From contig NZ_CP124543.1 in NCBI RefSeq assembly GCF_029953635.1, forward strand, positions 2,149,455-2,213,454: a stretch of 64,000 nucleotides of DNA, written 5' to 3'. A program made the position numbers and the translations under genes. Source of the DNA: Halotia branconii CENA392. GTDB taxonomy: Bacteria; Cyanobacteriota; Cyanobacteriia; Cyanobacteriales; Nostocaceae. Below the pieces are notes generated by a model. The model was not told the origin of the DNA. It saw nothing but the letters and a program-made list of their open reading frames with translations, and did no database searches. Positions 61,687-64,000 of this stretch are shown piece after piece (positions within the stretch are counted from its first letter, which is position 1; each line of letters opens with the position of its first letter).

Positions 61687-63390
61687 CTACGAACTTCTCC
61701 CTTCCCCCTTCCCTGTGCCCCTCTTCGGTAAGCTAACTATAAATTTAGTTCCTTGCCCTACCTGACTGTATAAGGTAATGTTACCGCCATGCAAGTCTAC
61801 GCAAGCTTTAGAAATTGCTAGCCCTAAACCTGTTCCAGGAATTGTATCAACGTTGCTTGCACGACTGAAAGATTGAAATAAGTTTTTTTGATCTGCGATT
61901 GGTATCCCTATCCCTTGATCTTGGATGGAAAACACCACCTGTGATTCTTTACCGATGAGGTGAAACTTGATCGCGCCACCATCTGGAGAGTACTTAATTG
62001 CGTTAGACATTAAGTTAACAAAGATTTGCTGTAAAAGTCCGCGATCGCCCCAGAAGCCTTTGGTATTACCAGTGACTTGAAAAATTAACTCGTGATGTTC
62101 ATCCACTGTCTCTCGTTCTTGTTCAATCAACTCAGAGAAAAATTGCAGCAAATCCAGGGGAACTGGCTTAAATTTAGTGTTGTCCAATTCAAATTGGTTA
62201 ACCAAAAGCATATCATCCACGAGTTTGGACATATACCTAGCTTTATGCTCAATAATTCCTAAAAATCTCTGTTGTCTAGACTCATCTAATTGCTGGCTGT
62301 GGTTTACCAAAGTTGATGCAGCTGCCAGAATTGAAGTTAAAGGCGTTCGACATTCATGGGAAACTGTACCAATGATTTGGGATCTAAATATATTGAGTTG
62401 CTGTTCTTTGACTAAAGCTGCTTGAGTTTGGGCTAATAATTCCGCTTGTTGGATAGCGATCGCTAATTGTATTGATACTTCATAAAGCATGTCCACATCA
62501 TCATGTTGCCATTGTCGCTCTCCTAAACTGTGTTGAGCCACCAATAAGCCCCAAAGCTTCGGCGTTGGGTTGCCGTTATTACTAATATTAATCGGAACTA
62601 CTAAATTTGCTTCAGTATTAAATTGCTCTTTAAGAGTGACACAATTACTTAAACCAACTTCATAAATATAAGAAATAGGAATCTGAATATTAGACAAAGA
62701 CAAAGTAGACAAGTTAGGAGAAATTTCTGTTTGTCCTTTTGTTTTTAAACCCCAGTTCCCAGTACCTACGCAATTCTCCAAAGCTAAAGTGCAACTTGAC
62801 TCCATTGAAGAGGCGACTATCTTACCAGTCATATCTGAAGCGAATTTATACACTATCACGCGCTCACATTGCAGAAGTTGTTGTACTTCTGCTACAGCAG
62901 TGTTCAAAATTTGCTCTAAATTCAAAGACTGGCGAATCCTTAGCGCAGTTGTGGCTATAAGGCGTTGTCGCTCTTGAGTTTTGTTGAGTTGGGCTTGCAG
63001 GTACGATTGCTTGATGGCGTTGCGGACTGCTATTTGCAATACATCTGGTTTCAGGTTTTGCTTGACCAAATAATCTAAAGCACCTCGTTTCATGGCTTGC
63101 ACTGCGAGTTCTTGATCACCACGCCCAGTTAACATAATCACGGGTACGGCAGTCTCAAATATCTCCTGCTTCAGTTTATCGAAGAGTTCTAACCCACTTA
63201 AATCAGGTAGACAAAAATCAAGCAGAATAGCATCGCAGTGATTTTCTTGACATAGGGTCAGGGCATCTTCTGCACAGTCAGCCTCCAAAATATTGTAAGA
63301 CTGATGCGGATCTCGTAAAAGATGTCGCCGATAGATTTTTCGATCTGCTGCACAATCATCAATGATGAGTAGCGTCCGTATGTCCAACAT
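61687..63390 (-). CDS. Hybrid receiver-GAF-histidine kinase with CBCR-like GAF
   Basis: A 567-residue cytosolic protein. A receiver domain (1-122) has Asp58, Thr88 and Lys110. Residues about 145-325 form a GAF domain of the cyanobacteriochrome/phytochrome-like type (LLQCERVIVYKF, and LVVPINIS, LWGLLVAQH). In the bilin-attachment area it has AGLSxCH-like EVGLSNCVTL: the Cys is kept (Cys250) but the following His is Val. A HisKA domain has His345 (TVSHECRTPLTSIL) and HATPase_c follows (GTGLGLAISKACVDLHG). The upstream gene is a CheY/Rcp1-like receiver, so the two likely form one pathway. Confidence 0.88.
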   Translation of the reverse strand: MLDIRTLLIIDDCAADRKIYRRHLLRDPHQSYNILEADCAEDALTLCQENHCDAILLDFCLPDLSGLELFDKLKQEIFETAVPVIMLTGRGDQELAVQAMKRGALDYLVKQNLKPDVLQIAVRNAIKQSYLQAQLNKTQERQRLIATTALRIRQSLNLEQILNTAVAEVQQLLQCERVIVYKFASDMTGKIVASSMESSCTLALENCVGTGNWGLKTKGQTEISPNLSTLSLSNIQIPISYIYEVGLSNCVTLKEQFNTEANLVVPINISNNGNPTPKLWGLLVAQHSLGERQWQHDDVDMLYEVSIQLAIAIQQAELLAQTQAALVKEQQLNIFRSQIIGTVSHECRTPLTSILAAASTLVNHSQQLDESRQQRFLGIIEHKARYMSKLVDDMLLVNQFELDNTKFKPVPLDLLQFFSELIEQERETVDEHHELIFQVTGNTKGFWGDRGLLQQIFVNLMSNAIKYSPDGGAIKFHLIGKESQVVFSIQDQGIGIPIADQKNLFQSFSRASNVDTIPGTGLGLAISKACVDLHGGNITLYSQVGQGTKFIVSLPKRGTGKGEGRSS

Positions 63391-63638
63391 AGAAGTATGA
63401 GGATCGGGGAGCTATATAGATCCCTTTTATCCAGATTGTGTTTTTATTGCATAATTCTAAAAATAATATAAAATAAGTATAAATAAAATATAATTTCTTT
63501 ACTAATCCTAAAGCGATACTCAGTAATAGCAAAAATCAAGGACAAATCAATAGACACAGCAATGCACACAGAAAAATTTCTCTGCGTCTTTAAGTCTTCC
63601 TTGTTTGTCTACTGCTTCATCGACAAAAAATCAACAAA
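63391..63638. other. Intergenic gap between regulator and hybrid kinase
   Basis: AT-rich gap of 248 bases with no gene; a CTGCGTC-containing repeat-like stretch occurs near 63580. It could separate two transcripts of the same operon. Confidence 0.4.
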
Positions 63639-64000
63639 TCAATCCAAGACAGGCGGAGTGTTCACTTCCAGCCAGTAGTCTACGAATGCCTGAATCGTCT
63701 TTTTTAGTTCCTGAGCATCCATTGGTTTTACCAGATAACCATTTGCACCCTTTCGGTAACACAATTCAATATCCTTGGGGTTAGATGATGTGGTAAAAAC
63801 CACAATGGGAATTTCCCTAAAACTTTTGTCTTGCTTGAGACGCTCTAGAATATCACGACCATCAATACCGGGTAAATTAAGGTCGAGCAGGATAACAGAG
63901 GGTTTAAGCGCTACTTTAGAATTGCCTAAGGTATCGCTTTTTTGTTGATAGAGGAACTCTAAAACCTCATCTCCATTAGTACAACGGTGTATGGGGTTCC
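63639..64000 (-). CDS. Rcp1-like response regulator (partial, cut by window end)
   Basis: The C-terminal 120 residues of a single-domain receiver. The phospho-acceptor Asp is in SVILLDLNLPGIDG, the Thr is in IPIVVFTTSS and the Lys in GANGYLVKPMD. The part before Asp (RCTNGDEVLEFLYQ) and after (the loop FREIPIVVFT) fit Rcp1-type partners of cyanobacterial phytochromes. The N-terminus lies beyond the window. It is upstream of the hybrid kinase by 248 bases, same strand. Confidence 0.85.
   Translation of the reverse strand, partial: NPIHRCTNGDEVLEFLYQQKSDTLGNSKVALKPSVILLDLNLPGIDGRDILERLKQDKSFREIPIVVFTTSSNPKDIELCYRKGANGYLVKPMDAQELKKTIQAFVDYWLEVNTPPVLD

Follow-up and report, generated by a model that had tools for sequence, protein, structure and literature searches.

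A PPHK-type histidine kinase of Halotia branconii CENA392 with a cyanobacteriochrome-derived GAF domain that has lost its bilin pocket, encoded beside a tandem-cysteine phytochrome

Genes and domains at the locus

The window, a stretch of 64,000 nucleotides from Halotia branconii CENA392 (contig NZ_CP124543.1, positions 2,149,455 to 2,213,454), ends within a minus-strand operon in which a 567-residue kinase is the last complete gene (Table 1). The operon begins with a phytochrome (a 755-residue PAS-GAF-PHY histidine kinase), continues with a 151-residue Rcp1-like regulator and closes with the REC-GAF kinase; gene order and common strand suggest that the genes are co-transcribed. The Rcp1-like receiver reported upstream of the kinase in a preliminary description of this DNA is real, and the gene that the window end cuts is complete in locus L009.

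The same description recognized a hybrid kinase with a cyanobacteriochrome (CBCR)-like GAF, and this identification is borne out by the open reading frame, by matches to CBCRs and by four Pfam domains (Response_reg, GAF, HisKA and HATPase_c), each of which scores over its cut-off. The architecture is that of PPHK, the dual-sensor, phosphorylation-responsive photosensitive histidine kinase (structures 6oap, 6oaq and 6ob8). An AlphaFold model of the kinase, built from an alignment of five sequences, is poor as a whole (mean pLDDT 54.4, and below 30 over most of the segment that we call the lid) and too uncertain for measurements of the pocket; a fold search with this poor model gave 6oap, histidine kinase cores and DivL (4q20) among its matches, on which no conclusion here relies.

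Table 1. Features of the kinase and its operon, in window coordinates unless a locus is named
Feature	Position	Strand	Basis or remark
Tandem-cysteine phytochrome, 755 aa, just beyond the window	L009:4600-6867		upstream of the Rcp1-like gene
Rcp1-like response regulator, gene cut by the window end	63639..64000	(-)	complete 151 aa in L009:4094-4549
REC-GAF-HisKA-HATPase protein, 567 aa, PPHK-type architecture	61687..63390	(-)	ORF, Pfam domains and PDB match
Receiver (REC), residues 8-118	63037..63369	(-)	Pfam Response_reg, 76 bits
REC phospho-acceptor Asp58 codon	63217-63219	(-)	D58 in 89/91 family rows, the other 2 being gaps
GAF domain of CBCR descent, residues 157-313	62452..62922	(-)	Pfam GAF, 48 bits, and tree
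Decayed pocket lid, residues 196-241	62668..62805	(-)	acid, Tyr and Arg of the CBCR bilin pocket absent
Cys250 codon, on the bilin-attaching Cys column	62641-62643	(-)	sequence and alignment
Val251 codon	62638-62640	(-)	
HisKA (DHp), residues 336-398	62197..62385	(-)	Pfam and family alignment
Phospho-acceptor His345 codon	62356-62358	(-)	family alignment
HATPase_c, residues 448-557	61720..62049	(-)	N463, D491, G493, G521 and G523 invariant in 91/91 family rows

Ancestry of the GAF domain and state of its bilin pocket

Among all PDB chains, the best match to the window GAF is 6oap (1.8e-27), the PPHK of Leptolyngbya sp. JSC-1, which one source describes as a phycocyanobilin protein with a 562 nm green state (PMC11480761); the next matches are all CBCRs. 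Receiver and GAF together align with 6oap from end to end (242 bits, 7.4e-71). In a tree of 39 GAF sequences (14 orthologs, five stretches from the PDB and 20 GAFs of the window genome), the orthologs form a single clade (100/99) among CBCR GAFs whose placement within the CBCRs is not resolved, and two general GAFs of the window genome branch separately from them (99/99). Because the ortholog clade sits among CBCR GAFs and away from the general ones, the window GAF is a CBCR descendant and not a random GAF. The tree thus speaks against the position among general non-pigment GAFs that the preliminary description had named as the counter-case. Five further CBCR-like GAFs of the window genome (L122, L123, L128, L129 and L132) are without Cys at the bilin position, and blind CBCR descendants appear to be common in this genome.

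The motif EVGLSNCVTLKEQFNTEANLVVPI, on which the earlier assignment was built, is present in the window GAF, and Cys250 was correctly placed at the position of bilin attachment, as it falls on the Cys column of PPHK. The accompanying statement that the following His is replaced by Val holds in part: Val251 does follow Cys250, but the helix is one residue short, so that this is not a clean swap. The spacing from Cys to Phe is seven residues in CBCRs (CHVNLLAQF) and six in the window GAF (CVTLKEQF), because of which the His column is best read as a deletion or a shifted Val. A His after the Cys is usual and not obligatory, RcaE having C-L and miRFP670nano C-Y. Since these pigmented relatives are without the His too, the argument from it is weak, and we rejected the missing His alone as proof of pigment loss. 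The more important change comes before the motif: over residues ~196-241 the sequence has ceased to match any CBCR.

We compared pocket residues in a panel of five PDB references, 20 GAFs of the window genome and four family rows. All five references have the acid (one column off in RcaE), the Tyr and a Cys with H, Y or L after it. Thirteen of the 20 window-genome GAFs have Cys on the bilin column, and of these all 13 have Tyr or Phe and 12 have the acid at or next to its column. The window GAF has the Cys and neither acid nor Tyr. By our reading, the stretch from residue 200 to Cys250 contains no Arg, and near the D ring it has Gln in place of the His, Tyr or Asn of the references. For miRFP670nano3, PMC10357936 gives D56, Y67, R71 and H117 as side-chain contacts of the chromophore, and names miRFP670nano as an engineered descendant of NpR3784; as we read the alignment, none of these four contacts has a counterpart in the window GAF. 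Of what characterizes a CBCR photoreceptor, the domain therefore retains the descent and the canonical Cys, and is without the normal Cys-helix spacing with His, Tyr or Leu, the pocket acid and the propionate-binding Tyr and Arg; the residues that form the bilin pocket of the PPHK-type photosensitive GAF are absent from it. The loss of acid, Tyr, Arg and D-ring residue is better evidence of pigment loss than that of the His.

Loss of the Cys and the GAF, and variation of the lid, among orthologs

A match to the kinase at E 1e-100 or better was found in 114 of the 217 genomes of the window's GTDB family. The family set used below comprises 91 genes, drawn from 85 of the 114 genomes, with two genes from each of six; among the first 108 loci, 18 were duplicates or paralogs and did not enter the count. 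On the PPHK Cys column, 52 of the 91 genes have Cys (44 secure and 8 doubtful, the latter being rows whose lids are not reliably alignable), 35 have another residue and four have no GAF. The residue after the 44 secure Cys is V in 26, Y in 7, R in 5, L in 4 and C in 2.

Cys250 is present in the window gene and in its nearest relative. Close relatives whose proteins are otherwise similar have the Cys replaced by Arg, His or Tyr (L036, L049, L085; L052, L086, L087; L012). On a tree of REC and kinase columns, the Cys label changes eight times by a quick method and with several long branches in the tree, and well-supported branches make at least six of these changes unavoidable. The four genes without a GAF group together (90) on the REC and kinase tree. 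Among the four family rows of the pocket panel, only L064 keeps acid, Tyr and Cys, and there is no phytochrome gene within the stretch examined around that kinase.

Selection was estimated as dN/dS by the Nei-Gojobori method in 25 Nostoc-group genes, giving 0.116 for REC, 0.088 for the first part of the GAF, 0.063 for residues 242-318 with the Cys, 0.078 for DHp and 0.138 for the ATP domain. Against this range of 0.063-0.138, the lid (residues 196-241) reaches 0.575, although its alignment is uncertain, and its evolution in the Nostoc group seems almost neutral. The contrast therefore indicates that the GAF frame is kept in this group while the lid drifts. Because Cys250 is kept in the window gene and its nearest relative, and the segment around it (242-318) is under strong constraint in the Nostoc group, this segment must have some function. 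The window's own lid, compared with that of its nearest relative, gives a dN/dS of 0.17 for this one pair and is less relaxed than the Nostoc lids.

Among the 87 family genes with a GAF, lid length ranges from 24 to 483 nt. Near-perfect heptamer runs of at least 14 bases occur in 21 of the 87 lids and in none of the 87 remainders of the same genes, while lags of 5, 6, 8 and 9 give 0, 1, 7 and 1. The units, typically CCCAATC and similar, resemble the short tandemly repeated sequences already described in these cyanobacteria. In-frame heptanucleotide repeats within the coding lid are seen in L011, L026, L031, L036, L039, L049, L085, L086 and others. That heptamers built the window's own lid is unsupported, as its run of 9 bases hardly exceeds the 8 in the rest of the gene.

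The operon phytochrome and relatives outside the family

The operon phytochrome (PAS-GAF-PHY-HK) has Cys259-Cys260, with Cys in place of His260 and His in place of Leu264, and the remainder of its bilin pocket is intact; these residue numbers are those of Cph1, assigned by motif. The pocket is thus preserved in the phytochrome where it is lost in the kinase GAF. Each of the 52 full-length phytochromes that adjoin a family kinase has Cys-Cys, a 53rd row (L014) being a Cys-His paralog, and so do 63 of the 69 rows of a wider set. Arg222, Arg254 and the tongue Arg and Ser are kept in 63/63 of these Cys-Cys rows, and Asp207 and Tyr176 in 62 each; position 264 is His in 60 of them and Tyr in three, and Leu in the six other rows. 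A tree made without the Cys segment unites the Cys-Cys phytochromes in one clade (35 of 48 rows, 100/100). In a larger count, Cys-Cys occurs in 97 of 110 rows, many of which are the same genomes repeated. A strict DNA pattern for Cys-Cys with His264 occurs in at least 12 of 386 genomes of the phylum and misses forms without His264, as in L166 and L169.

We considered and rejected the Cys at position 260 as a new finding, since 'tandem cysteine cyanobacterial phytochromes' are an already published class, cited as published work in PMC12420706. An AlphaFold model of the L010 phytochrome, made from two sequences, has a mean pLDDT of 34.3 and is too poor for measurement of the pocket. The window genome also has a second phytochrome (L175), an ordinary Cys-His form, after which come a response regulator and a candidate REC-kinase of 387 residues without a GAF. 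The Rcp1-like neighbor had earlier been taken as support for a light role; this is plausible for the operon, which a tandem-cysteine phytochrome starts, but not evident for the GAF itself.

In a class-wide search, a match to the REC-GAF of PPHK was found in 134 of 388 genomes. Seven REC-GAF-kinase genes from outside the family were picked for their short reading frames and are not a random sample; L173, REC-GAF-GGDEF-like by sequence, was excluded. Acid, Tyr and Cys are present in all seven, whose lids measure 96-99 nt, and the residue after the Cys is His in six and Tyr in one. Two of them, L166 and L169, adjoin a Cys-Cys phytochrome in triads (L166:847-5520 and L169:1889-6382) in which the kinase has an intact CBCR GAF. 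From these two operons and the trees, we infer that the Cys-Cys phytochrome probably first had a kinase with an intact GAF as its partner, and that the decay of the GAF in the family came later. Three further triads (L167, L168 and L172) show the same gene order and a different pairing: a Leu-His or Ile-His phytochrome with an N-terminal Cys (biliverdin type), and a kinase GAF with a DTCF motif and Cys-His.

Signalling residues of the receiver and kinase

The receiver residues D11, D12, D58 and K110 show no substitutions in the 91 family rows (two or three rows are gapped), and T88 is Ser in two rows; D58, T88 and K110 are all present in the window kinase. The phospho-acceptor His345, intact in the window gene, is conserved in 82 of the 91 family genes and replaced by Tyr in eight and Cys in one.

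Tyr stands at this position in L074, L080, L099, L100, L101, L102, L103 and L104, and Cys in L079, within motifs such as SYEYRTPL and SCEYRTFL. All nine keep the ATP site, and they include the four genes without a GAF. These nine members have the appearance of DivL-like pseudokinases.

Proposed function and alternatives

We favor, with a probability of about 0.7, the reading that this is a PPHK-type kinase with a GAF that has no bilin pocket, in which the phytochrome would sense light, phosphate would reach the receiver and the GAF would serve as a blind but constrained scaffold. Light would be perceived by the tandem-cysteine phytochrome, encoded two genes upstream of the kinase, and its signal would arrive at Asp58 of the kinase receiver either directly or via the small Rcp1-like regulator. 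Phosphate input at Asp58 would then alter autophosphorylation at His345, the output of the kinase. The GAF, presumably without pigment in vivo, would keep its frame and the helices linking receiver and kinase, as a passive part of the dimer and its helix spine. In this manner a device with two inputs (light OR phosphate) would have turned into one that takes phosphate as its input and whose GAF is passive. Against this reading weigh the retained Cys250 with its constrained segment, and the window's own lid, which has no significant heptamer run and is less relaxed than in Nostoc.

A more far-reaching version, to which we would give slightly less than an even chance, holds that the kinase is the blind relay of a violet-sensing phytochrome, that the pocket became a landing site for heptamers that change its length in frame, and that some lineages went on to shed both the sensor and the His, leaving a receiver-controlled DivL-like pseudokinase. 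If this were true, a decay series from photoreceptor to pseudokinase would still be visible in an operon conserved among heterocyst-forming cyanobacteria.

The preliminary description had allowed for either a divergent photoreceptor or a GAF without its former pigment, and the loss of the pocket, the hypervariable lid, the repeated loss of the Cys and the loss of the GAF in a subclade argue for the latter. Under the former, the GAF would still bind bilin covalently at Cys250 in a rebuilt, non-canonical pocket. Such a C-V photoreceptor would fit the constraint on Cys250 and the following helix in the Nostoc group (dN/dS 0.063), the C-V pair in 26 of the 44 secure-Cys rows and the dispensability of the His in RcaE and miRFP670nano. 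It is improbable, however, when acid, Tyr, Arg and D-ring residue are absent together, close relatives have Arg, His or Tyr for the Cys and the lid is so variable. We regard it as rather less unlikely that the GAF was reused in the Nostoc group, either for another small ligand or with Cys250 as a redox or metal site, an idea that would fit a lid that drifts while purifying selection strongly holds the GAF frame and the Cys segment; yet neither the Cys nor the lid that would close over a ligand is conserved across the family, and one clade is entirely without the GAF.

That the whole gene is degenerating and functionless is very hard to credit, even though nine of the 91 family genes have Tyr or Cys in place of the kinase's phospho-acceptor His. 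REC and kinase have dN/dS values of 0.08-0.14 in the 25 Nostoc genes, D58 and the ATP-site residues are nearly invariant, the window gene has an intact His345 and the kinase is retained in 114 of 217 genomes.

GAFs that score as CBCR-like and have the Cys in place are easily annotated as photoreceptors. The family provides a natural series at one operon position, from an intact to an absent pocket, which could be used to ask what a GAF does in a PPHK-type kinase beyond light sensing, and how the wiring between a phytochrome and a receiver-controlled kinase works. Other lineages offer natural GAF-less and His-less versions at the same operon position for comparison.

Comparison with known systems

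The literature searched, whose coverage lacks the two nearest papers, gave no description of a PPHK-type kinase without a bilin pocket next to a tandem-cysteine phytochrome. DivL is a tyrosine pseudokinase, and the nine family members described above, of which the window gene is not one, resemble it in having Tyr or Cys at the phospho-acceptor position with the ATP site kept. The window protein differs in its His345, and homology to DivL is claimed for the kinase core at most. With the CBCR GAFs of the RcaE/CcaS and NpR3784 types, the window GAF shares its lineage, and their C-L and C-Y pairs show that the His is dispensable; unlike the window GAF, they retain the pocket acid and Tyr.

The operon phytochrome agrees in sequence with tandem-cysteine phytochromes in having Cys259 and a Cys260 for His in a pocket that is otherwise kept. 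These cyanobacterial phytochromes were reportedly described by Song et al. (JBC, in 2020) as having a violet/blue dark state and a doubly linked bilin. PPHK is said to have been presented in PNAS in 2019 as a device of two-input logic, with an upstream photoreceptor within the proposed circuit. The window kinase shares with it the order REC-GAF(CBCR)-kinase and the homology over REC and GAF of 242 bits. PPHK has the acid, Tyr, Arg and Cys-His and binds phycocyanobilin, whereas the window GAF has none of acid, Tyr and Arg, a longer lid and a Cys helix that is one residue shorter.
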